Origin: Phytophthora quininea
Taxonomy: Eukaryota > Oomycota > Peronosporomycetes > Peronosporales > Peronosporaceae
Direction of reading: 5' to 3'
Assembly (NCBI GenBank): GCA_011947345.1
Contig: JAAVTG010000248.1
Coordinates: forward strand, 301,705-365,704
Length of the DNA: 64,000 nucleotides
Shown: piece after piece, positions 9,566 through 62,913 of the stretch
Layout of the letters: every line of letters begins with the position of its first letter
Numbering within the stretch: position 1 is the first letter of the stretch
Program-made: the position numbers and the translations under genes
Notes under the pieces: model-generated
Databases searched by the model: none
Told to the model about the DNA's origin: nothing
The model's input: only the letters and a program-made list of their open reading frames with translations

Positions 9566-12500
9566 TTACGCATTTTCGTCCGTGACGATCTGAGCGGGTG
9601 TCCTTGTCATGACCCAAGCACTGACGCTGTTGCTGCGCTCGTGCGGGAACTCGTCCAAGATGGCCTCGAACCGAGCACTTGTAAGAACGAAGAGACTCGT
9701 CACACACAGCGATACGCACGTAGCATTGCGCGGAGTGCCAAATAGCAGCGAACGCTCGCCAAAATAATCGAACGGCCCCTTGTAAATCTTCTCCTCGCGC
9801 TCTGTGGTTTTGTTGATGTCGGACACCGTTCTAGTGGGGGACATCAGCGCCACCAGGCTGCGCTGTCGTTGTTTTGGTGCCCTTTTCGACGCGTCGGCTT
9901 TGCTGGCCTTCTTCAAACGCACCGATGCTCGCACGCTAACAGCCACCCACTCGTTAACGGAGGGCGATAACGAATTGTCGTCGTCAGCAGGAGGTTCGTC
10001 AGCCTCGCCTTCGGCTCGTGCACCTTGAGGGGCCTCAACATTTCGCATGCGCACAGCTGAAATGAGAACAATGCCGCTTTCGACGATATACAGGCTTCGC
10101 TCCATGTCCCCGCGCTGGATGATGACATCGTTGCGCACGAAAAACTCGTGCTGTAGCGCTGCGATAATCGCACGCGCAAATTTCGGGTCGCAGCGTGTGA
10201 AGAGAGCCACATTTTTGAGCAGGTTGGCGTGCACGTGCTGCGCCAGGTCCTGCCGAACGGAAGGAGGCAGACCCGCAGCAATTCCCGCTCGCGACGACCA
10301 CGACTTTCACACCACGACAGGGCAAAGTAGACTTGCATCTGCCGCCACGTATCGCTTGGGAAACGGTGGAAACGCAGGAAATGGCCGACTTGCGCTACTT
10401 TTTCCTCATATTCAGCTCGCCGCCCCAACTCCATGTCGAAGTACTTGTAAAAGCCACCAGATAGCATGCTGAAAATGACCACCGAGATAAAGATCACAGC
10501 CATCGTGGCGAGAGTCTCCTGGGCGTTCATAGGGATAATATCGCCGTAGCATACAGTGGTGATAGCTCCGATGCTGAAGTGATAGGTCCGCAGGTAGGAC
10601 TGAACCAGTGGCACTTGCCGGATCTCTGCCAAGTTTTGCACGTTGTCGCCAAACGACAGCATACCGGGCGTGGTGAGCCACGATTGTTCACCGTCGGCAT
10701 AAGCCAAGTACGAAATGCCGTAAAACAAGCACGAAAGCCAATGCGTTCCCATGGAAAAATCGAGAGCCAGCCGAAACAGATAGCAAATACTTGGGGTCAA
10801 CCCGTGCACGTGCCTGTCATACAGCAGGAAATGCTGAAGCCTGTCGCTAAGTGGGTGGAAGTGCACCACGCGAAGAAAGCGGTTAATGCGCAAGAAAGCA
10901 AATGTGTGCCAGTTAACCAATCCCCCGATGGAGAGAACAGCAGTGGCCAGTTTGATGTCATCGCAGAAGGAGGCGCATAACCAGCTTGACGTAGGCCGAC
11001 TATAAATGAAAACATGACGAGTTCCAGTGGCAGTATTGACAACACATCCACTAGATACCAACCGTGGTTCCAGTAATGATGAGCAATGCGCTTCGGGTCG
11101 GTCACAGGCTCGCCACTGTGGGTAAGGTAGACGAAGTAGCGGCGGTGCAGTACGAAGTCGACGATACATGCTGCATCAGCGAGCAGGTACTCAACAGCAA
11201 ACCAAACCATCACAAAAGTCTCGTAGGCGGCGTCGTTCAATGGCCCGTCCAAAAATCCAACCTGCAACGGAATAAACAGCAAGTAATACACCGTCACAGT
11301 CAGCATGACAGCGGCCCACACATCCCGGAAGCGAGCACTTGGGTCGAACCACGTCGTTCGCGAGCCTTCTTCCACCCAAATGGAGTACGGCGAACTTCGA
11401 TGCGAGAGATGCTCGCCTATGGATTTTGACGATATAGCCGGGGAAATTTTTTTGCTGGTAAAGCTACTTTCGCGTAACCATCGTTTCCACCACGAGTTTG
11501 ACCCCTGCTTCGCTCGTGCTCGTGGGGGTCCGTTTTGGGTTAAGATACCGGCAGTGGGAAATGAGGGCGAGTCTTGTCATCGACAGACAAAAACGTCATG
11601 CGCTGCTCAAGAGTGCGCACTTCGGACGGTGACAAATTGAATTTGGACCGCATGTTGACGGGGTCTGTCTGGATAGAGTGGCGTCTTCCAACATCTTGGC
11701 GAAATGCTTGATCTCGTTGAGCATCTCGCGCCTCGGTGAACGAAGGTGGCACGCAAATGGAAACTCGTCGTCGCGTGATTCGTCCCGTTGTTCCTGGCTC
11801 TCCAACGTTGCGAAGATCCTCCTGAACATGGCCCCAGGCTACGTGGAAAAGCTGTATAGCTCGAAGACGTTTCTCGTGCCGCTTCCATCGCAATTCGGTA
11901 CTTGCTGACAGGCGAGCAAGCGGTTGTATAGTGGCGGTAATGGGCTTCGCCCACAACCCAGACCTCCTTGGTTGCTGGCCACTAATTCCTGTCGCCGTGG
12001 CTGTGGGCCCAATTGGCTCCACTGGAGTTTGGAACACAACATCCTTCTGAGTTTCGACTGCCACATCGCGACTGCAATATTCCTCCAAGACATCCAGGTT
12101 GGTCGACACATCGAATGCTGCTTCACGACCACTCCGGTATGACTCGAGATCTACGCACTCAGAAATGCTGGACATGTCAGACGCTGACATTTTTTGCCAA
12201 CGATGTATTTGATAATCGCAAACCATCCACCCCACCGCCGATATTGCGGCTGGTGATTACGTGCCTCGGTATCCGTTTTGGGCCGATGGTCGGCCCTCCC
12301 GTTTCTTGTGCTTTCGCACTCCTCCGAGGTGATACAGAGAGCTGTTGTTTCACTCGAACAGCAGGTACTGGCGAATCATTCTTGATGTAAAAGTTTTTCG
12401 CGATGTTCAGGAAACCCCAGGCCGTGTCTTTGTATTTGCGTGTCACCACAGCAAGCACGACTTGCTCCACTTGAGCACGCACGTTCGGCGGCCATAGGCG

Positions 12501-15500
12501 GTCCCAGATGCGGCGGTGAACCTGTAGGACTTGACAGGTCCGCACAGCCCGTACTGAGAATAGTCGCTTGGCACCAGGAAGGAAGAATGCAAACTCGCCA
12601 AAAAGTGACCCATCCGAGAGCGCACCATATACCAGGCCAGTACGAGGCGCAATTCGCTCTGCGCAGCCACTTTTCAGTAAGTATAGTCTAGTTCCAACAC
12701 GATTGGCCTCACATATGAGGTCCCCAGGAAGGTAAATCTCGAGAGCCAACGCCCGTGCAATCGCCTCCAGCTGGGGAAGACTTAAGCCAGCAAATTCCGG
12801 CAATGGCTGGAGTAGCGCGCTATACATTTCTACGGCAAGGCCAGCATGTAGAGACGCAGGTAAATCCCGTAGCGTCGAGTGCAACTCCAACTCCAGCTGG
12901 CAGCGAGCCTTGATTGCAAGGCCTTTCATAGCTCGCAGTCGCAAGTGCTTTGGTAAGGCTCGCTGCTTTGCGTACTGCTGAAAATCCTCCACACGATCGT
13001 TTCGTTGCTTCTGAGTTTTGTCAAGTGTAATCATCAGCGCGTTAATACGCCCAATAACCTGCCCAATGAAAATCCACCCGAGAACACACGTGAAGAGTTC
13101 GTAGCACGTCTCAAGGAAATTTCGCGCTAGAATGTCGCCAAAACAGTCTACAGTGAACTGCACACATATTCTCTTAGTAAGGTGGCGGTGGGTTAAAACA
13201 AAATATCGCACTAGCACTTACCGCTGATAGGCACCAGTACATAGTGCGCATGTAGTGAGAAAATGGGTCGTTTGGGTTTTGATTGAGCACAAGATCAACA
13301 GATACCCAGCTCGTTTTAGCTAGACCAGTCTTGAGCTGCCCCCACCCCAACAAATAGTACACACTGCCGATATAGTGGGCTGTTGAAATGAAAATCAGAA
13401 AAACTTGACGAGTTCAAACGCGCTTAGCAGCACGGCATTCCCACGCAGAAAACGTTCTTGGATCTCGGTGTGGACTTCCTGCAGCAGCTCACCTATCTGT
13501 AGGCAACGCAAAAGACGTGGTAATCGAGCTGCAGTCATGCCAAATGGGTCACCACGGTAGTACAGCGGAAGCATCCCAAGCACATCTTGCCATCTGTGAC
13601 CGCTTTCACGATAGTGGTCTTTGATGGCCTCTGGATCGAGTACAACTTCACCAAATTCTATATAACCCAGATGTCCAAACTTTAAGAATAAGTCAATGAA
13701 CAGAAAAACATCCAGGATATAGTCGATTCCCGTAAGCCATGCCAGCATATCGGCATCAGGAAAAGGAAGAAACGCCAGACGAAAAATAATCACATAGAAG
13801 TTGTACACAAGTATCGCTCCAACTCCACGGTGCCACCAGCGCCAAAGGTTGATGTCGGATCTAACACATGTGCACCGCGTTTCTCCAGCTTTGATTTACT
13901 GCTGTCCACGTAAAGTGAAGTACACGTCCCCAGAACCCGCACGAGCTTTTGTTACTCCTTCCTTGAAAATTATTGCGATGAGCAGCCACTAACCGCTCAG
14001 TGCTCTCTCTGAGCTCTTTTTTCTCGCTCGGAGCCGTGAGACATAGTGCGGGAAGCGTGACGCCAAAATCAAAAAATCCCGACGGCGAATAATTGCTACA
14101 CGAGCGCTCGATACTACACGTATACTTACCTCGTAGACCTTTGTGATATCGGACAAGCTTTCTTGGCCAAAGAAATCGTGCTGTTTCAGAATACAGATCG
14201 GAACCGGAGCGGCTTTAGCACCCGCGCCGTCCCGCAGCGCATCAACCACCAATTTCAGACTCCCATAGCGCACTAGCCTCGGACGACGCGCACCAAGCGA
14301 TTCTACCAGTAACCGTTCGACATGAGGATCATTCGGTGTCGAGAAACATTCTTCTTCTTCTGAAGGCTGCAGCTGTAGAGGCTGGGTATGGGAGCCCATC
14401 TCTTGAACGGTATTCTGCATTTTACTCGGCGAATGGCTTCCGTTGAAAGAGGACGCCGTAAACTTTCTTGCCAACGCTGCTGTAGCCGCAACATGAATCG
14501 AGTTCCTTGTCCTTCGCGCTGCGGAGGCAACCTTAGATTGAATTTCGATTTCCATAGGAACCGGTGGCAACAGGCATTCAACTTCGCCACTGAGGATCAC
14601 AAAAACTCAGTGGCCAAATGACCTTCCCTGGTAACGGTCACATTTCTAAGGAAGTGATCGCAGGTAACAACTAGCGTCAGTTGCTGCATGAAGAGTGCAG
14701 CATCGCTATTTAAACCAGACCCACGGAGTCCCGATCCTTCAATGAAAAGAGTGCAGTGCCGCAAGTCAGCTTCATACAATTGGGTAGTCACAGCACGACG
14801 GAGAGAGCGTGGTAAATGATCCAGTAACTCGAGGTCGCCAACTGCGCTGCCGTTCAGTTTCCATTTGGCCTCGTAGTAGCTTCGAACAGTTCGCTTGGTC
14901 GCGTCGGACACAGAAGTCATGCTACGACACATCAACAGCACGTTAATTCCTTCTGCACGGTCACCGCGGATTGTCGACAGCACATTCAGTTGAGCAAGCA
15001 CACTTGACAAGGCACAACTTGTAATATAGCAAATATTAGCACCGAAGAAAATCCACAGCGCGTCCACTAAGCATTCGCGCGTTGAAAATGCGACGATGTC
15101 GCCAAATCCAACCGTGGAGAGAACCACAATGCTCCACAGCATTGAACGAAGATATGGAGCATCGATGTCAAAGCTGCTGCGGTCGTACATGTACCACGTG
15201 CAGTTATCAAATCGGCTCGCATTGTCGAGGCATTCAGGAAGAGAAACTGAGTTGGGCGCCACGCCACTGACTGGCAAACCACCTTCAAATGATGTTCTGT
15301 CCGCGACTGCGAAGAAGATGCAGGCTGCCGCATGAGCCATCGCGGTGCAAAACACCACTACATCTGCGAGAAGCCGAAACGCTGGACCATAGCCACGCCT
15401 TGCTAGCACCTCGTGCATTTTCCCACGTAATTTTCGCACACGAAATAAACGAAACAAGCGCAATCCCCTCAAGATGTATACGTAGCGCCTGCTAAAGAGC

Positions 15501-17905
15501 TCTTTGGGCAGGACGTCCCAAATCAGTGCAGCAGGTACGAGCGCGAAGATCTCAAGAACAAGACTCTCATGCTGCAAATACAGTTGAAAAATCTGTGGAC
15601 TTCGCATCGCTAGGACGGAGCGAGGCGTATCCACGTGTCCAATTGATGCGTGCACATCACCTGTTCGAGCTGCTGCACTTAGGAATTCACAATTATTTTC
15701 GACAACAGGATACGGCCGAACGAAATATCGCGCCCTTAGCCATAGATCAGCGTAGAAAAACATCTCCACGATTAGTGCGGCCAGGAAAATAGCGATTTGA
15801 AAGTCGCTTGGCGTTGTTTCGTCACTTGTAGCTCTCGCAAAGCCGTTTGAAAGACCGAAACTACGTTGAAAGGCGATGTGGTAGGGCACCTCAGCGAGTA
15901 GGTACAGCATCAGAATGCACTCAGCTAGTGCCCAATCTCGTCTGAACTTCGAGCCGGGCATCCTCCATGCCGGAACCGTTGACATTAAAACCAAGGTGGA
16001 CGACAAGCTCTGTTCAGAGGCGGCGACGGAAGCGGCGGCAGAAATAGCGGCGGCAGCAGTACGCAACTTGCGAGCCTCGATCGCTTGAAGAAGGAGACTG
16101 CCGTGACCAAAAACCTTAGAATGCCGCGCTTGCTTCTTCATCGACGTCACCGAATCCACACGGGCTTCAGACTCGTTCTTAATAGTGTTTGTTCTGTCAT
16201 CAACAGTCGTACTACTAGTAGTCTTGGTACCGAACTGCTGTAGCAGCAATGACGCATAAACTAACTTGGAAAAGTGTTTTGCTAATGCAGCTTTGAATGA
16301 CTTAGTGGGCAAGTACCACACCTCGCAAAACGTTGCCGCTTCAAGCCGACTTCGAGCGACATGGCGTTCAAACAATGCGTACTCAGCGTAGGCATCTCCG
16401 GCCATAATTCGACCAATGACTGCTTCACGGACGTCGATCAATCTTACTTCACCACTGGCGACGATAAACATTTCATCAGTTTCTCCAGGTTGCAGTAATA
16501 CCTGCCCTGGCGCATATACGTCTCGTACCAAGGCCCCCATTACGGTGCGCAAGAAGGCGCCTTTTCTGCGTTTGAACATTGTCAATTGGCCAAGCGACTT
16601 GTAGCGCACGTAGTGCGAGCACTGTGTGCGATAATGGGGCGGCAAAGCGGCTAAGATGAGTTGTTCTTCGACCCCATTCCGCGTTTGTTGCATGTACTGA
16701 AAATATGTGTCCACCGACGCCACAAGTGCGGATGGGGCATTTCGAGCTTCCAGAAACTGCACAATAACGGCGGGTCCATTATAAGGCAAGCATCCTCCAA
16801 AGCCAAAGTCTCAAGCAAACTCACCTGAAGTGCCTGGGCCAAACGTGTGCTGATATTGCTCGTAAGGTTGGCATCTTTGTGTGTGAAGTAAAAGTATAAG
16901 CCGTCAAAATTGCCGTGACCCAAAGCCCAGCAAAAATTGGACAAAAACCCTGTAGCCTGTCTCGACAAGCGTGACGGGTATGAGATCTCCTTGGCCCAGA
17001 GTTACTACTGTCTTGCAAGCCCAATACAGTGTGCGAACATACTGCCGCAAATGTGAGCCGTTTTCTAGATGATCTCGCAGCACCCAGCAACCAGGAGAAG
17101 CCATCGAATGTGCTGCACATTTTGTAAATTCCAATCCGCACTCTACATGTGCTATCAGCATATATCCTGCAGCCGCAAAATGGCAAAAATACATTCCATA
17201 CAGAAACAGTATCGTGATGTTGGCGACCGTGCCCGATGCCAAATTTTGTGGTATGCCTCCAGCTGTAACAGCTAGCTGCCCACCCACCCGGCCCCTTGCA
17301 GATACTAAACGGAAGAGTCCGAATATATGGAGGAGATTAAGGTGCCGCCCACTAAATGCCACGAGAAACAGGATCTCCCACGGTATACAGTAGCTCGCCG
17401 AAATTGTCCACGTGAAGAGGCTAGCAGAGCGTGAAGATCTCTTGTCGCTGCTTCCTTTAGGGTGTTGGGGACTCTCGTTGAATGTTCCGAGTTCATCCTG
17501 TTGTTTTTGTTGCAGTAGGAGGGGTGGAGATAGTTCCGATTTACTTGTTTCGCGACTTAACAAGCGTCTTGTCCCCTCTATCAGTTCTTCACGCGAGCTC
17601 CAAATGCGTAATACGCTGGCGGCCACATCCGCAATTGTAAACATCACCAGCCCCGTGTACCATTGATCACGACCATCTTGGTACGGATCGAAAAAGAATC
17701 CTACGCGGAGTGGGGTGCTCAATAAGACGTAAACCAAATCCAGGAAACTTGCGAGTGCTAATACATTTCCACGAGTAAACCACTTCAGTCGAACCAGAAA
17801 CCATCGGCTCAACCGCTGTCCGACAACCACCGCTGGTCTCGGCCGCCGTCGCTGTTTGCGCTCACTTTGCAAGCCAACATTTCTAACCGCGTTGCTATCA
17901 AACAT
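9566..17905 (-). CDS. Giant four-repeat voltage-gated-like channel with four cyclic-nucleotide-binding domains (tetra-CNG/CNGK-like)
   Basis: One minus-strand gene encodes four successive units of six membrane segments plus a C-linker and a cyclic-nucleotide-binding domain (CNBD), about 2,700 residues. Pores: repeat 1 TLGQGDLIP (about 16995-16970), repeat 2 STVGFGDI, repeat 3 TVDCFGDI (spliced), repeat 4 TTVCYGDII. Repeat 2 has an Arg-rich S4 (RGLRLFRLFRVRKLRGK). CNBD1 and all of repeat 2 share one 730-codon frame, so fusion is certain there. Introns seen: 16824-16757 and 13221-13158, both GT-AG and both restoring a conserved domain; a third of about 105 nt near 13993-13889 is likely. Remaining breaks sit at homopolymers (16932-16936, 14601-14605, 13399-13403, 11556-11558, 10270-10272). 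No ATG suits a separate start before repeat 3. The 5' end may extend to an upstream exon near 18117. It resembles the single-chain four-repeat CNGK channels of animal sperm; K+ conduction is inferred. Confidence 0.85.
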
Positions 17906-30289: not shown

Positions 30290-31371
30290 TTGCTGCTGCT
30301 CGAGATCAGTGAGAGCTGGTTGCGGCAGCGATGAAGGTTGTGAGTGGTGTTCAAACGTTTCAATAAGCAACAGGATAAACTCATCAGCGCTGCACTGCGC
30401 GTGCTGCAGCCCGCTACGACAGGACTCCTGGGGGGCAAGATGGACCAATCTAAAACTACAACAATCAGACTTAACACCGAGTGTAGGAAGCAGCCAGCGG
30501 TGGCCTGGTTTGCCGCTGGTTGATGGAGGTCCGGAAGATGAAGCTCCTCGGCGTCGAGAAGCATGCATACCGGCTAGCTGAAATCAAAGGAGTCCGCTGG
30601 TACTGCAATTTCAATGAGACGGGCCACGGTGAAATGACCGATACACGAGCGACTCATGTAGTGGCTCGCCGTGCGCAACTGTCGCCGCATGTAGCTTTCC
30701 GTTGCATGCTGTCTGGCTTCGATCTGACTGGCAATCGTGGTGAACGCGGCGATTACCGGTGCTATGGGTCAGGAATTTGCAAACTGCTGCCACCGGGCGA
30801 GGGATGAGCCAGGGAGCTCACGCAGAACTTCTCTGAAACAGCCCTCGCAGGACATTGCTGCTTTTGCCTCCCAGAACAGGCCTCGGCTGGTGCCGCAGTC
30901 CAGAACATGCATGTTCGCTAGCATGACACACAAGGAGGTTGGCAGTTGAAATGAATGGCGGCGAACCTACGCTTGATGCGGAGCACTTCTCGGAACATGG
31001 ACCCCCCCCCGGAGATCGTATATGCGGCAGTGGAACGATCGAGCCCGCGTCTTGGCTGCGCCCGATATGCAAGCGCGTGTTGGTGGCGGGTGTCCACAGA
31101 AGTGGAAGAGGACGAGCTTCACGCCGCGGGTAGCAACAGCATGTCAGCACGTGACACAGGCAGCGCTGCGGATTTTCCTATGGGCAGAATTCACGACTTC
31201 ATCGGCCTGGGTACGTGCTCTCCTGCTTAGAGTGGGCGATGCGAGATCGCGCGCCAGCCTCAGGCATGTGCCTCTCAAGTGAACAAGCTGTCGTTGTGCA
31301 TATCTGTTAGTTCGCTATTCAGCAGTGTAGTACAGAGCCTGCGGGTGCCAACGCTGACGAGGCAGCAGATC
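30290..31371. other. Intergenic region between duplicate fragment and PH-ankyrin gene
   Basis: No supported gene. Possible further decayed sequence from the same duplication. A C8 run lies near 31002-31010. Frames on both strands are short and unconvincing. Confidence 0.35.
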
Positions 31372-34300
31372 ATGACGGCGCCGCTGGACGTGGCACTGGC
31401 GACAGCCCGTGCAGAGCTGCTGCAGGCGCGCGAGGAGCTGGCGCAGCAGCCCGCGAGATCCTTTCAGGACGCATTCCTAGAGGCGCTTCGAGGGCCCTAC
31501 GAGCAAGCCGCAGCCTCCCAAACGCCGGCAGGAGGCAGAGCAGAGACGAGGTGGCGTCGAAAGGACCTTCGCAGCTTCTTAAGCGCCTATTTCCCGCAGT
31601 ATGCGCAGCACCATGAAGCCTTCGCCGCGCTCTGCGCCTCTCTAGCTCTAGGAGCTGACTCGGACGTCGTGGTGGCGACGTTCGACGCCTTGAAGCGTGT
31701 GCTGGCGCGGCAGTTCTGCAGCACCAGATTGGCGGCCAAGGACCCCTTCCCGCTGGAGCCTTGTGCGGAGAATAGACCGGCGGAGAGCCGCCCCACTGGG
31801 CCTCCGGTACCAACAGGTCCCAGCGTCCATGATAACGGCTCGAATGCTGCCGCCACACTGCCGGAGACGCGCGAATTCCAGGCCGACGTGCTCAAGAAGT
31901 CGCAGAGCTGGTTGGGACGATGGAGGACGCGCCACTTGGTGCTGCGCTGGGGGCTCCTGGAGATGCACAAGCGCACTCTGGCCGTGAGGTCTTTCCGCCA
32001 CGCGCATTCATCGGCGAGCAGCGCTAGCACCACAGCGAACAGCGAAGACTCTGTTTCGACTCTTTCTGCGGCGGCGAACGCAGGAACCAAAACGTACGAC
32101 CTCGGTGATTTGGTGGCCATAAAGCTGGAGAAACTCAACGACGGAGACTCGACGCGCAAGACAGCGCTCACGCTGCAGTTTAAGACGCCACTTGCGCAGC
32201 CGTCTAACAGCCTCAGCAACCCTACGCCGACGGCGAGCCATGATATTAGGACGCTAGTCCTCGGAGGTGGAGGAGGCAATGAAGCGCCCGATTTGCTGGT
32301 TTCCGTTCGAAACCACGTCGCCACGTTTGCACTCTTCCTGGAGCTCTCGCGACGCGATCGTACGCCATCAATGACCCAAGTGCGACGGTTTGTGGAAGCT
32401 GGTGCACAAGTTAACGCTCGTGTTCACATACCCCGAGGATCTATGTCCCGCGATTCGAGTGGAGGTATGCGTCGACAAAGTTCGTCAAGCAAACAGGTAT
32501 TAATGGGGACGGTGACAGCGCTACAGCTTGCATTCCTACAAGACCCTGGAGCACCTGGCTTCGAGAGTTTGATAGTGCTGCTTTTGAACGCCGGAGCCAA
32601 CCCACGCAGCCTTTTACACTGGGAATATGCGACTCATGTGTTCTTTCCGCCGCTACCAGCCTCTTCGACATCTAGGAGTGGCAAGAATGACAACGGCGAC
32701 CATCGGCAAAGACAAATGTTACGCAAAGGTTCTTGCTTCGAGGCACACTCGAAAGTGACGAAGGCGTCACCGCTGCGTTCTCATGTGCCAACGTTCAGGC
32801 TGAAGATGGAGTACGCTGGAATCTTCTGATGTTTTACAGCTGGCACGCAGACGTTGAAAGTGTGCAGCGCCTTATCAACCTGACGGGAATCGGTAGTTCC
32901 CAGGGCATCCAAGGAAGAATGTCCAATAGGCAAATGCTGACATGCCTAGACGACGTGAATGCTGCAGGTGATACGGCGCTACATATTGCTATAAAAGGTA
33001 ATTCGGAGCCCGTGGCGCTGCTGATTGTGGAGACAGCACTAGCAACAAGCGCTCAGGCTGTACACCAATGTGATGCGCGTGGCGAACCGGTGGTTCATTT
33101 AGCGTTAACAGCTCGGCAGTGGCGCGTTGTGGATGCTCTGATAGCTGGTGGTGCTGTTGATCCTCGTTCGTATGATGCGTCAGGGAACTCTGCGTTACAT
33201 TTGGCGATTCAATTACGCGCGCCCGTGGCCTTGATCGCTCGGCTTATTCAAATTTATCGACACTCTCCGCCGAAAGGAGGCCTCGATGGTCGTGCAGGGC
33301 GTCGTGGGAGCAACGACACGCCGCTGTCACTGGCACTCAAGAGCGGCCAGCAAGAAGTCGTGGCTCTCCTGCTTGCTTCCGGTGCATCGCCTGCCGGTTC
33401 GGACTGTCACTGGAGCACAGCTTTCAAAAGCAAGCACGAAGATCAAAGCAATCAGGACGCCGAAGGAAAATGCATAATCGGCGATGATGATAGTGCTCTC
33501 CATGTGTCTATCAAGGCAGGGATGGAACTTGCAGCCGCAGCTCTCATTGCTCACAAAGCGGATATTTATTCAAACGACTCACGTGGCGCATCGACACTGG
33601 CCTTGGCAATTCGTCACGGTTTGTACACACTTGCTGCAGAGCTTGCAGAGCAGCATAGCAAAAGCAGCACAAGCAACCGCCGAGCAAGCTTTGGTGGGTG
33701 GATGGCGAAACAGGAAGACCTGTGGTAATGCTAGCTGCCCAGGCTGGGCAGCTCGAGTTGGCTGCCCTGCTGCTGGACTATAGTAGCCAAGACAAGCAAG
33801 ACGATCCCTGGGTGGACCACTCGATGAATACGTCGCGGACTCTTTCTCTTCTCACACACATTATAGTCTGGCTAGATGCGAATCCAAGTAGCAGCTCTCG
33901 ATCGAATTTGTCGACACGCAGCTCTGGTCAAGATCACCAAGAAGAGGAAACGGAATCTGCTAAAACCAAGAAGATCTGGTCATCAAGCTCGACCTGGACA
34001 AGAGACCGCAGTAAATCTCGAAGTGATGGAGACTGGAAGAATTTGCGTCGGGATCACGGCGGCTCAGTCTCGTATTCTCGGGGCCGTGAAGACCCAATTG
34101 TCTCCAAACAAGAGAGGACCGCGTGCAGCTTCCTTCTCTACGGAATCCAAGGACTTGTGCTGCGATTTCTTCAACTCAGCCCAAACCATGCAGCTGCAGT
34201 TGCAGATTCTGCGGTATCGCAGTCGACATTGCCACTTCAAGTTCGATTGCCGACCATTGCCATCACTAGTGCGATTCCGCCAAAAGCTCGCAATGTCGAC

Positions 34301-36192
34301 GAGAAAACGACACCGCTTCACGTGGCCGCATCAGGCGGTCATGGGACCTCGAAGGTGCTGCAACTACTCTTGGCGTTTCTCTTGGGGGTGGATCCCAGTG
34401 CTGCGGCGCAAGTGTTGATGCGTCCAATGGGGCCCGGTGCAGAGACCCGTTGCACGTGGCACTTGCAGCCGGAGCTGGCCAGAATGCATTGTTGCTGCTG
34501 TATTCGTCGCGCGAGCTTGAAGCACGTAGTCCTGCTACAAGCAGGATATGCTCACATCTCTACGAGATGCCTAATCTAATGGGCGACTCTGCACTGCACT
34601 TAGCGAGTGCACAGCCTCGAAATGCTGCGATTCTCCTGGTTGTTGAGCTGCTTCTAGAACAGAACGTGGATGCTGGTGTTTGGAACAACTCCGGACTAGC
34701 TCCACTTCACGTTGCACTGCAGCAAGGTTGTGACGGTACCCTTATTGAACTGTTCCTGCGGTACGGGCAAGATTTAAATCTATGGACTGAAGGCAGCGCG
34801 ACCAGGTGCTCCGGGGTCAGCGACAGCGGGCCGAACGCAATAACACTTGCGCCATATCCACAAAATGCTTTAATGCTTGCTGTTGAGTCCGAGAATGCCG
34901 TCGCATTTCGTGCGTTGGTACGAGGCGGTGCGCGAACCAGAGCTTTGATGCCGCACGCGCGTATTGGGTTGCTGCAGCTAGCGGTGCATTGTGGTGTACG
35001 CAACCCAGAACTACTTGCTTGCATGCTGGACGACTTGGAGCTCGAACGCTCGGCTCAATCCGAGATTATGGATCAGTGGGGAGTTAGCCCTCGTGATGCA
35101 CGTTCAAGACTGACCGAAATATGGAGAAGAGAACGGAGTCGAGCTAATAATGAGGAACTGCCAGAGAATTGTTGTCTGCCGAGTGAGGACCGCAATGACA
35201 ACGACAAATCGCAAGTGGGCAATCGACCACCCCCACTTCATCTCGCGCCTGCACATGACGACCAAGTGCTCAGCAAAGCATCGTTCGGCAATAATGCTGG
35301 CTTTACAGTTCAACCAGGTACGTCTCGAGTACCACCACCACTTCGAATAACGGGGCCGCAGCCCGCCCTGACCCAAATTCCGTTGGAGACTGCTCAATAT
35401 TTGCGAGCTCTTCCTCATCCGCCCGCTTTGTCGCCACTAACTCTGGAATATCTTCGCGAAGAAGAGCGAGCGACGCTGACACTTGTTGCACATGAGGCGC
35501 GCAGCGAGGCGCAGACCTGGCTGGCGAAGCGAATTGGCCAGAAAAATTGTTATCGGATGCTCACGCTCACCTACAGCACGCGAAAAAGCACCGACGCTCA
35601 GCAAGCGGAAGCAGTGTGAGCAGCGCTAAGGACGATGTCGTAACGACAACTTCTGAAAATCGCGAGCGCTTTGAGTTTGCTCAGAATGACCAGCAATTGC
35701 TGGAGGCACTGAAGGCCACGGCCGCTAAGATATTCGTGGACAAGCATGTGGCGGAGGTGGTGGCAGAAGTTCGACTTGCTATCGAGCGAGAGAAGCAGAC
35801 CATATTTCAAGAAACGGGTTTGTATCCTGGGGCACCTTCAAAGAAGAGCAATAAGACGAGCAGCAGCCGACATCGATCGTTGCTGGTGCGCGCAGCGAGT
35901 TCGACCACGGGGTCGATGCTGCTTCCAGCTTTGTCGGCGTCGGTGACGTCAATGTCTAGCGAGGAAGGAACCACGTACCAGCCCAGTGAAGACGGCAACG
36001 GAGGAGCCAGCTTTTGGTGGTCTGAACGCGGCACAACATTTTTGAGCGACGATAACCTTACTTGGCTGTCAACAAGTGGCCCTCGAGGGGCACTATGCTA
36101 AGCGACTCGGGTGCCATCAGTGGAGGAGGGTCGCTAGATTCCAGAGACGATCGACATCTGTGGAGCTTTATAGAAAGTGAGAAAGCATGAGA
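31372..36192 (+). CDS. PH-domain and ankyrin-repeat protein
   Basis: ATG at 31372 (MTAPLDVALATARAELLQAR). A PH domain begins near residue 170 (DVLKKSQSWLGRWRTRHLVL) and runs through DLGDLVAIKLEKL. From about 32400 there are at least eight ankyrin-type repeats, e.g. GDTALHIAIKGNSEP, GNSALHLAIQL, DDSALHVSIKAGMELAAAAL, TTPLHVAASGGHG, GDSALHLASAQPRN and LAPLHVALQQGCDG. The C-terminal 200 residues are charged and helical (VAEVVAEVRLAIEREKQ), then Ser-rich. About 1,600 residues. PH domains bind phosphoinositides and ankyrin repeats bind proteins, so a membrane-linked scaffold is inferred. The frame breaks near 32725, 33695, 34400, 35541 and 36090; four of these sit in G or A runs where one added base gives continuous repeats. 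The last shift moves the stop to 36192. Confidence 0.82.
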
Positions 36193-43832: not shown

Positions 43833-46049
43833 ATGGATCTTGTTGATCTGCAAGCTCGGCATGGTCACGATCGACTAGCGATAGGTGATGTCTTCAGAAC
43901 CTGTGCTTTGTTCTCTGACTTTCTCAAAGATTACGCGTTTAATAACTACAAAGTTGTGGAAGAAGAAGGTAATTGCGGCAATCTTAAGAAGTGGCGTTGT
44001 GTCACTTCAGGGTGCGAATGGCATGTCTGGATTTCTCTGAAACGGGGGTCTGGAAAGCTGAAATCGAAATATGGGCACGTTCCGGTGGGTGACTGGTATG
44101 TTAGCCGGCTTTATGATGAGCACAAACAAGATTGTGGATGCTTCCGAAAACCATCTGCTGAACAAGTCTCTAAACTGAAGGGACTTCAGAGTGCATTCGT
44201 TGGTGGATGCCCCTCTTCACGAAGGAGAGTTTCGAATTCTCTAAAAGTAACAAGCAATGTGAATATGGACCAGAGAGCAGCGACGCTGTATCGAGCTATG
44301 AATATTTTTATGGCAGATACTGCGTTCTTGGATACATACAGCTACCTTACGAGCTATTTAACATCGTTCAGTGAAAAAATCCTGGGTCCCGTGTGTGTTG
44401 TCAATTAGACAAGCAAGGTCGTTTTTTTCGGTGCTTTATTTCAATTGGAGACGTGGTAAAAACGCAGCCCATGTGGATTCCGGTATTGCTGTGCGATGGT
44501 ACGCATATGCAGGGTGACAAATACAATGGTGTTTGCCTGTGTTTAATCGCACTCGACGGCGACGGGAAGAACATACCTGTAGCGGTGGGATTTATTCCTT
44601 CAGAAACAGCAGATAATTTTGTTTGGTTTCTTGCTAACTGTATTGCCGGAGGTGTTAAATTCGACGATCGGGCTTTGTTTGTTGACCGAGGGAAGCAGCG
44701 AGAAGCACAACAGCGTCTGGGCAAGCTTGGTTTTGGTATCAATTTAAAATTTTGTGCTTTTCATATTTCACTCAACGTGAAGGATCACTTCCGGGCTGTA
44801 GATAAGGAGATCGAGCGGGATGAGGCGTACGTTATGGATCTACAAAAAGCTTCCACCATAGCTGACTTTGAAAAAATTCTGAAAGGTATCGACAAAGAAT
44901 TCCCTTCCAGACGAGTAGTCCGGGACCAGCAAGGCAAAACGACAGAGCAGTCCGTGGCAGATTATTTGAGATCAATTCACCCGATCAGCTGGACACGCTT
45001 CGGAAATTATCCTCATTCAGAACCAGAACAGATATATCTAGAGGAGAATTGGCCCGTCGAGAAAGCGTTTGGTCGTCCTACACCTCTGTTTGGTCTTCGA
45101 TCAACAAGTGCTATCGAAGGCGAAAACAATGCCATGATCTGGGATAACATTAGAGACCAGGAGGTTCTTTTGGCTTGCATCGCCTTTCTCGAACGTGCAA
45201 CAGATACAATGATGAAGAAGCAAAAACCTTTCTCGGAGTGGACAAACAAAAAATATAATATGACGCCTACTGCCAGCGCTCGATTCCAAAACCAGGTTAG
45301 AAGAGCTCAAGCATGCACTGTTCGTGGAGGTTGCAATGGTCTTTATCAAGTTCATGAGCCCGTGAAAGTAGCAGGTCGCGAATCGGGTGGTGCACCAACA
45401 AACGTGATTGATGAAACGTTTCTGGTTGACATTTTAAAAGCATCATGTACACGATGCCCAACGCGAGAGCACAAGCAATATCCCTGTCGACATCTTCTTG
45501 CTGCATATAACCATTGACGATCGTGCGATATGGCGATGGAGCCACTATTTCATCCGTGCTACAAGATAGAGACCACCAAAAACTCGTTAGCGTCTGTACG
45601 GGTACTGTTGCCGTCCCGAAGTGATCTCTCCAGCACAAACTGCATGACTCCACCACCATTGTACCGTCAAAGTGGGTCTTCGCATACCAAAAGAAGAAAA
45701 GGGATCGAAAAAGGCGAACGCCTCGAATTCCAAGCGGCGGCGAAGTCCCCCGTGCCGCGAAGCCACTCTCAAAACCGCCAACACCAGCGTACGAGACAAC
45801 ACAAGGCGATTCAGCATTGGATATTGCGCTAACTACCTTTAGTGATCAAATCCGGGAGTCCCAACAGTAAAGCGAAAGCCGTACAAATGCGGCATCTGCG
45901 GAAAATCCGACGGTCACAACGCTTTAACCTGTCCCAAACGGATCAACGTCGATGCTCCAAGAGGAAGTGATATTGAAGGAGGTGCGTATGTCGTGGGAGA
46001 ATGTCCGCTGGCAATAATTGGCGACATTGTCGAATCCGCCATTGTTTAA
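43833..46049 (+). CDS. MULE transposase with SWIM zinc finger and C-terminal zinc knuckle
   Basis: The first frame (ATG 43833) is an N-terminal Cys/His/Trp DNA-binding region (WRCVTSGCEWHVWISL, HKQDCGC). The second (44396-45517) is the MULE catalytic core: IPVLLCDGTHMQGDKYNG (first Asp), VAVGFIPSETADNFVWFL, ALFVDRGKQ (second Asp), then a SWIM finger CTRCPTREHKQYPCRHLLAA. About 110 codons further on, in another frame, a CCHC knuckle appears: KCGICGKSDGHNALTCPKR (about 45877-45933). Breaks occur near 44395 and between 45520 and 45850; the first is within GTGTGTG. It acts on the 79-bp inverted repeats of its element. Confidence 0.85.
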
Positions 46050-61164: not shown

Positions 61165-61446
61165 TGCTACGACCGGTTTCGGGTGCATCTCAAGTACGCA
61201 TTGCTAGGCTCCATGAACCGCCTTCATCCAAGTCGAGGGAATTGGCTGATGCCTCTACCCAGACGGAGCCACCAAAGTGTGTGAGTGTGCAGTGTGGCAC
61301 AGGAGATATGAATCCAGAGGCGACCAATGTGAAGACTCTTGGATCACAGGTGGAGAACCAGGTGAAGATTCGGAGTCAAGAGATGAGGATGTTGAATGTG
61401 CCGTCTCCAATCTCGCCGAGGCCGGTTCGGAGATCGATGACTTCCC

Positions 61447-62913
61447 GTGTGTATCGGTACTCCGCTCGAGAAGCTGGAGGAAGAGTATGCTCGGTGTATG
61501 CGAGTGACTTCAGAAGAGTTGGATCTGGAACCTGCGGTTTACCTCCGAGAGGGTGGCGAACTCATGGAGCAGTTGCGAGATGAATTAGCCATGCTTCCTG
61601 AATTAGAGGATCTGAGCCCGCAGTGCGACATCAGCACTGCCGACGTAGGAGTCCCAGGATCCACTACTCCGGAAATGGAGAAGAAGCTGAGAGACATCTT
61701 GGAACGGCATCGCTCGATCTTCTTGGGTGATGGAAACGCTGCCCCCGCTCCAGCGCGAGGTGTCGTTTGTGATCTGGATGTTGGGGATGCGAAGCCGGTC
61801 GCACAACGTGCGAGGCAGATAGCACCTCATCTTCTGGTGAAGGTCTACGAACTGCTGAAGAAATTGTTGGAAACAGGGTTGATTGAGTTTTCTGAGTCTG
61901 CGTGGGCATCCCCGATCGTGATCGTCCTGAAGAAGACTGGTGTGGACATCCGGATGTGTATTGACTATCGACTGGTGAACAGCTTCATCAAGTTGATGAG
62001 TTATCCACTACCTCTAATTGACGACCTGTTGATAGGGTTTGAACATGCGATGTGGTTCATGAGTCTCGACATGGCCAGCGGTTTCTGGGCGATCCTGACT
62101 GAGAGAGCCAAGCTGATCTCGGCTTTTATCTGCCCATTCGGGCACTTCCAGTGGATCCGGATGCCGTTCGGTCTCAAGAATGCTCCGCTGATTTACCAGT
62201 GTGTGATCAACAACTGCCTTTGGGGGTTTGTTCGACTCACGCCGGATGAGGAACGGCTGGTGGATTCGGAGGTGCTAGAGTTTCTGGGCCTGAATGCAGA
62301 CTCAGAACTCACCGCATCCACAGTGCCTGCGCTGTCTGAGCAGATGACTGTGTTTCGGCGCAGCATCCCGATGCCATCCCATGTGGGCCCAGTGTTGGGA
62401 CGAAGTTCGTATATTGACGACATCGCACACGGAGCCGTGACCTGGGATGAGCTCTGCGAAGATCTGAATGCATTGCTGTTCCGACTCCGATACTGGAGCA
62501 TATCGGTCAGCCTTCCTAAGAGCGAGTTCGGGAAATTAACGATCCCGTATTTGTCTCACGAGATCAACGCAGAGGGAATTCGAGCGACTCCGAAGATCGC
62601 GAAGGGCGTCCAGGATCTGCCATTCCCGAGCACTCTGAAGGGCGTGCAATCTTTCCTGGGAAGCCTCAATTACTACAACAAGTTTATTGAGGACCTCCCG
62701 GTGATCGCTGCGGTACTTTACGAGCTGACCGATGACCAAGTGCGCTCAGGTCGAGACTTAACCCGGGCTCGGGAAGCGTTCGAGATCCTGAAGCGGAAGA
62801 TTGTGTCGACACCGCTGTTGAGGCACCCTGACCGCTCCAAGCAGTATGTGGTAATCCCGCATGCAAACCCTGGGCAGCATGCGCTGTCCTGGGTCAAGAG
62901 TATGATGGGGTGA
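61447..62913 (+). CDS. pol: Gypsy reverse transcriptase
   Basis: RT motifs in order: GLIEFSESAWASPIVIVLKK, RMCIDYRLVNSF, MSLDMASGFWAI (first catalytic Asp), FQWIRMPFGLKNAP, a ~75-residue insert, then SSYIDDIAHG (YxDD box with both Asp), ISVSLPKSEFG and GVQSFLGSLNYYNKFIEDLP. All catalytic aspartates are intact. The insert between the FGLKNAP and YIDD motifs is larger than in most Ty3/Gypsy elements. The frame ends in HANPGQHALS, where one added base would continue into the RNase H. Confidence 0.9.
   Translation: MCIGTPLEKLEEEYARCMRVTSEELDLEPAVYLREGGELMEQLRDELAMLPELEDLSPQCDISTADVGVPGSTTPEMEKKLRDILERHRSIFLGDGNAAPAPARGVVCDLDVGDAKPVAQRARQIAPHLLVKVYELLKKLLETGLIEFSESAWASPIVIVLKKTGVDIRMCIDYRLVNSFIKLMSYPLPLIDDLLIGFEHAMWFMSLDMASGFWAILTERAKLISAFICPFGHFQWIRMPFGLKNAPLIYQCVINNCLWGFVRLTPDEERLVDSEVLEFLGLNADSELTASTVPALSEQMTVFRRSIPMPSHVGPVLGRSSYIDDIAHGAVTWDELCEDLNALLFRLRYWSISVSLPKSEFGKLTIPYLSHEINAEGIRATPKIAKGVQDLPFPSTLKGVQSFLGSLNYYNKFIEDLPVIAAVLYELTDDQVRSGRDLTRAREAFEILKRKIVSTPLLRHPDRSKQYVVIPHANPGQHALSWVKSMMG

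Follow-up and report, generated by a model that had tools for sequence, protein, structure and literature searches.

A stretch of 64,000 nucleotides from the oomycete Phytophthora quininea (contig JAAVTG010000248.1) was analysed; this whole stretch is called the window, and coordinates are positions in it. On its minus strand, at about 17.9–9.57 kb, stands a row of four ion-channel units which probably form one gene encoding a single chain of four repeats, each with six transmembrane segments (6TM), a C-linker and a cyclic-nucleotide-binding domain (CNBD), that would fold into a pseudo-tetramer with one pore. On the sequence evidence this would be a CNBD channel with four repeats that lies beyond the animal line. 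Our literature search, which did not reach subscription papers or protein databases, found no report of a four-repeat CNBD channel in oomycetes. Two-repeat CNBD channels are described in oomycetes and dinoflagellates, and the four-repeat CNGK channel in animals and choanoflagellates (PMC7576140).

Four six-helix units, each with a C-linker and a CNBD behind it, were located in order on one strand with transmembrane (TM) and CNBD profiles trained on paralogues from the same genome and with Pfam, as a sequence-only reading of this DNA had proposed. The Pfam channel domains (PF00520/PF07885) pass the cut-off for repeats 2, 3 and 4 and fall under it for repeat 1. The presence of a CNBD after each unit was confirmed above the Pfam cut-off for CNBD1, CNBD3 and CNBD4, but CNBD2 has no match to the family CNBD profile and was assigned by eye. 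With a 6TM unit with pore loop, a C-linker and a CNBD, the locus falls within the CNBD-channel superfamily. The features are as follows.

16825–17903, minus strand: repeat 1 (R1), S1–S6 and start of the C-linker, filter GQGD; TM profile 17434–16571; Ion_trans_2 E = 4.7e-4, under the cut-off; two frame changes in S6, about 16.93–16.88 kb.
16757–16824, minus strand: likely intron of 68 bp, GTGAGT...CAG, from a gene-finder model and the sequence.
16250–16756, minus strand: C-linker 1 and CNBD1; PF00027 E = 7.2e-15; CNBD profile 16516–16286.
14600–16249, minus strand: linker 1–2 and repeat 2 (R2), S1–S6 and C-linker, filter GFGD, arginine-rich S4; frame shared with CNBD1; found by Pfam; TM profile 15607–14744.
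14010–14690, minus strand: CNBD2, degenerate, with an insertion; PF00027 E = 0.0058, under the cut-off; frame change at about 14.60 kb.
13840–14009, minus strand: linker 2–3, about 170 bp, with its frame changing twice; no own-frame methionine ahead of repeat-3 S1.
12790–13839, minus strand: repeat 3 (R3), S1–S6 and C-linker, filter CFGD; Ion_trans E = 3.6e-6; TM profile 13640–12801; frame change at about 13.40 kb.
13158–13221, minus strand: likely intron of 64 bp, GTAAGT...CAG, inside the repeat-3 pore loop, from a gene-finder model and the sequence.
12492–12789, minus strand: CNBD3, arginine of the phosphate-binding cassette present; PF00027 E = 5.1e-10; CNBD profile 12737–12492.
11390–12491, minus strand: linker 3–4, about 1.1 kb, interrupted by frame changes at about 12.19 and 11.55 kb and otherwise open.
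10270–11389, minus strand: repeat 4 (R4), S1–S6 and C-linker, filter CYGD; Ion_trans_2 E = 1.1e-5; TM profile 11102–10273; frame changes at about 10.96 and 10.27 kb.
9566–10269, minus strand: CNBD4, long insertion, cassette arginine present, ending at 9566 in a stop codon; PF00027 E = 9.1e-12; CNBD profile 9898–9656.

CNBD1, linker 1–2 and the 6TM and C-linker of repeat 2 share one frame of 737 codons; among 500 dinucleotide-shuffled versions of the region, no frame on this strand was longer than 333. The sequence-only reading had placed CNBD1 and the whole of repeat 2 in a 730-codon frame; this holds as far as the C-linker, but the frame stops within CNBD2. Its claim that no suitable start ATG precedes repeats 2–4 stands for repeats 3 and 4, where the 23 and 85 residues, respectively, that lead up to S1 in the repeat's own frame contain no methionine; repeat 2 has eight methionines upstream, although its frame continues from CNBD1 without a break. 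Linker 3–4, said to be open once one base is added at 11556–11558, needs two changes, and the region as a whole, in our reading, ten. The frame of repeat 1 has its first ATG at 17903, and another ATG upstream, at about 18117, is in a different frame. Since the upstream side is occupied by a same-strand PP2C gene with its end at about 18.34 kb, and an opposite-strand gene ends at about 9.4 kb, there is no room for a fifth repeat. The intron-bridged model of the gene finder dodged the frame changes by removing conserved parts (the repeat-1 pore loop and the end of CNBD2), and therefore only the 68- and 64-bp introns were retained as likely.

The window gene belongs to a sizeable family. The genome (87 Mb in 993 contigs, from which the labels C264, C573 and so on are taken) gave at least 153 CNBD and at least 152 Ion_trans profile matches, and we examined 21 stretches, 20 chosen for clustered matches and one completing a locus, so that family counts are lower bounds. 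Besides the window, 15 loci have four same-strand TM units in a row, most with CNBDs; the family CNBD profile missed CNBD2 in 7 of the 16 loci. The 15 are of two phylogenetic kinds: type A, with six loci (four on C264 and one each on C507 and C669), and type B, with nine (five on C573, one each on C664 and C718, two on C866). Both C866 loci have allelic counterparts on C573, with identities of 97.6 and 97.5%, and their removal leaves at least 14 distinct four-repeat loci, 13 others and the window. The contigs C866 and C573 are themselves allelic at about 97.5% identity and separate in the assembly, their single-base differences often lying beside homopolymers. Single-repeat CNBD-channel genes are also present; at C573:654.0–658.6 kb, two single CNBD-channel units are divergently placed, with a pore region poorly matched by the profile.

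The repeats of the window are related to those of type B one by one. A maximum-likelihood tree was built from 62 TM units (columns include frame-broken loci; R1 of locus B866a was cut by the end of the stretch examined). In it, window R1, R2, R3 and R4 each come out as sister to the type-B repeat that bears their number, with SH-aLRT/UFBoot supports of 97.8/100, 99.9/100, 100/100 and 99.9/100, and the result was the same when the allelic copies were added. This sisterhood, with UFBoot of 100 in all four cases, makes the window locus a member of the type-B family and indicates that the row of four is older than the split between the window gene and type B, with its order kept. A grouping of R1 with R3 and of R2 with R4 was not recovered among window and type-B repeats in this tree; in type A, these pairs were found with supports of 95/96 and 97.7/99.

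The junctions between repeats are coding in the paralogues. A single stop-free frame spans junction 1–2 in 7 of the 16 loci, the window among them, junction 2–3 in 4 of 16, and junction 3–4 in 2 of 15 and, in addition, in the sixteenth locus. The latter, a type-B locus at C573:319.9–327.3 kb, has frames of 652, 645 and 775 codons that span all three junctions; the frame of 775 codons (C573:323615–325939) starts ahead of CNBD3, passes through the full linker 3–4 and reaches S1 of repeat 4. We considered type B as a three-repeat gene with a separate single repeat, because junction 3–4 was open in none of the eight loci of the first junction count, and abandoned this in view of the 775-codon frame and of conserved blocks in the linker, which, over the portion of the comparison covered, is conserved at the protein level among the paralogues. 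In type B (e.g., at C573:323615–325939), it has two conserved cytoplasmic blocks, ending in a Cys-Gln-Arg-Pro-like motif; these blocks may form a new regulatory module.

The single four-repeat CNBD chain that the sequence-only reading saw in an oomycete is thus supported by the phylogeny of the repeats and by the open junctions of the paralogues. The one-chain reading rests mainly on those paralogues, and on their sequences the continuity of the chain is well supported; for the window locus, we infer a single transcript. Division into two adjacent two-repeat genes (R1–R2 and R3–R4), or another split of the row, is unlikely. In its favor, the literature already has tandem CNBD channels with two repeats in oomycetes (PMC7576140), and one of this kind, with GYGD in repeat 1, lies in the same genome at C3:1360306–1363007; moreover, window junction 2–3 has two frame changes, and the type-B 3–4 spacing of 1.65–1.8 kb was crossed by a single frame in none of those eight loci. 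The four loci in which junction 2–3 is open and the 775-codon frame over junction 3–4 argue against such a split, as do the shortness of window linker 2–3 and the missing own-frame methionine ahead of repeat-3 S1. The units of the two-repeat gene group with neither R1–R2 nor R3–R4 and have no firm place in the tree. The window locus shares with the published two-repeat channel the fused 6TM–CNBD repeats and the organism group, but it has four repeats, stands apart in the tree and has mixed filters, whereas those of the two-repeat oomycete channel are reported as TVGYG or near variants (PMC7576140).

A decayed copy, that is, a former four-repeat channel gene that is now a pseudogene with real frame breaks, is the less probable explanation, though one with an appreciable chance, and the intactness of the window copy is unproven. 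Several observations weigh against a working gene with a single chain. Read-through of the window chain requires the ten frame changes, in 8.3 kb of this assembly, in addition to the two short introns. A control with HSP70 genes, about 21.6 kb in all, gave 10 complete unbroken copies and two more that are complete apart from a total of four breaks, several of the copies being near-identical duplicates; the window exceeds this rate (Poisson P of at least 10 breaks = 5e-6). So does the four-repeat family: when breaks inside domains were roughly split by spare length, the 15 other loci had 58, of which 49 were without intron room, in 59.7 kb of domains (P = 1e-4 for the 49 shifts). Two of the 62 domain breaks, the window counted in, preserve the frame, and both have surplus length of intron size. 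Assembly noise is real, since the two members of an allelic pair differ by frame-breaking changes, 8 within 11.6 kb of domains and 36 within 17.4 kb outside them, but such haplotype-specific indels account for only part of the breaks in domains, the window has more of them than haplotype noise predicts, and some are common to both haplotigs. The proposal that the breaks are uniform assembly noise was therefore not fully borne out by the HSP70 control and the allelic comparison. We found no allelic copy with which the window locus could be compared, and the G+C content at the locus is below that of its flanks. An AlphaFold2 model of repeat 2 with six paralogues reached a predicted local distance difference test score (pLDDT) of only 41.1.

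Decay would, however, be expected to leave other traces. Apart from the frame changes, the window read-through has no in-frame stop, although the frames were chosen by homology, so that a switch of frame could conceal one; for 10 neutral indels, decay calibrated on the haplotigs predicts 4.7–5.7 nonsense codons (P of none = 0.009–0.004). The frame of 737 codons is intact, and breaks are no denser than in the 15 paralogues by the statistical comparison (P = 0.15). In the haplotig pairs of two type-B loci, the ratio of nonsynonymous to synonymous substitution rates (dN/dS) is about 0.17 and 0.09, which indicates that these two genes are under purifying selection despite their broken assembled frames.

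Kinship with CNGK, which the sequence-only reading had suggested, was not supported as stated, and a true CNGK orthologue, whether through descent or transfer, is very improbable. The proposed layout of four 6TM–CNBD repeats per chain would be the same as in the CNGK of marine invertebrates, fish and choanoflagellates (PMC4749565, PMC6259924), and CNBD3, the best-kept ligand site, recalls by its conservation sea-urchin CNGK. However, the published features of CNGK set the window channel apart. CNGK shows kinship of R1 with R3 and of R2 with R4 (PMC7576140), which is missing in the window and type B and present in type A; its filters are canonical GYG or GFG in every repeat (PMC4749565), against GQG, GFG, CFG and CYG in the window; and its cytoplasmic linkers are short and equal (PMC6259924), whereas linker 3–4 of the window has about 1.1 kb of coding sequence and linker 2–3 about 170 bp. 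The window channel would thus work like CNGK in outline without being classed as one. Type A is more CNGK-like in repeat kinship, yet it has no GYG or GFG filter. Channels of the KCNH (EAG/hERG), CNG/HCN, plant AKT1/SKOR and bacterial SthK kinds resemble each single repeat in fold and in the order of their domains, and the best matches among solved structures are SthK for CNBD1 (5.7e-16) and KCNH2/hERG for repeat 4 (1.2e-13); unlike the proposed window chain, all of these are tetramers of one-repeat subunits.

The filters and ligand sites suggest how the window channel may work. Transcription would run as one gene from about 18 kb to 9.57 kb, with a product of about 2,700 residues that folds round one pore, so that each channel at the cell surface would be one molecule. 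Repeat 2, which has both the arginine-rich S4 and the GFG filter, would act as the chief voltage sensor and contribute the quarter of the filter that is closest to the K+ type. Because repeats 4, 3 and 1 bring CYG, CFG (read across the intron) and GQG, a cation channel with weakened, modest K+ selectivity can be expected. The arginine of the ligand cassette is present in R3 in all 16 loci; in R4, it is found in the window and in eight of eight type-B loci (one R4 was not assessed) and in none of the six of type A; in R1, in six of six type-A and one of nine type-B loci, with the window ambiguous; in R2, in none of the nine loci where the profile detected CNBD2. From this distribution, the gate is expected to be opened by a cyclic nucleotide at CNBD3 and perhaps CNBD4, and CNBD2 would no longer be a ligand site. 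Sea-urchin CNGK is gated by a single cGMP at CNBD3 (PMC4749565); if both hold, the likeness would be one of mechanism and would not imply common descent. A rise in cAMP or cGMP would then open the channel and change the membrane potential, with sporangia or zoospores as the most plausible stages: cyclic-nucleotide genes of P. infestans, CNG channels included, are expressed mostly there (PMC5322657). Ion-channel/cyclase fusions are among the zoospore membrane proteins described in PMC12223298.

In the six type-A genes, none of the 24 filters is GYG or GFG. All six carry two basic residues, KK or KR, in the R4 filter, R2 has GK in 6 of 6, and R3 and R1 have an acidic residue in 6 of 6 and 5 of 6, respectively; by these residues, the type-A pore is asymmetric and possibly not K+-selective.

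Elsewhere in the window, on the plus strand, an ankyrin-repeat gene extends over four overlapping frames (31231–35616), so that frame breaks or introns occur beyond the channel gene too, and MULE transposase and reverse-transcriptase domains lie at 44375–45514 and 61441–62910. The genome has 114 matches to PF00964 (elicitin family), and 14 control genomes have none; to our knowledge, elicitins are confined to oomycetes.

A wider reading, which we offer tentatively and do not yet favor, is that oomycetes built four-repeat CNBD channels independently and more than once, that type A lost the K+ signature from all four filters for an asymmetric acidic and basic ring recalling Nav- or NALCN-like pores, and that every gene keeps CNBD3, as sea-urchin CNGK does. 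More than one origin is proposed because the window and type B differ from type A in repeat kinship. In a four-in-one CNBD channel, genetics fixes the order of four unequal subunits round the pore, and the role of each CNBD, sensor and filter quarter could be addressed without sorting mixed tetramers. If the oomycete origin is separate from that of animals, nature would have run the experiment a second time, next to CNGK and the Nav/Cav line, and the common retention of CNBD3 would offer a rule to test. With CNG genes expressed in the spores of this group (PMC5322657), the family of at least 14 distinct loci provides candidate membrane-potential switches downstream of cyclic nucleotides.

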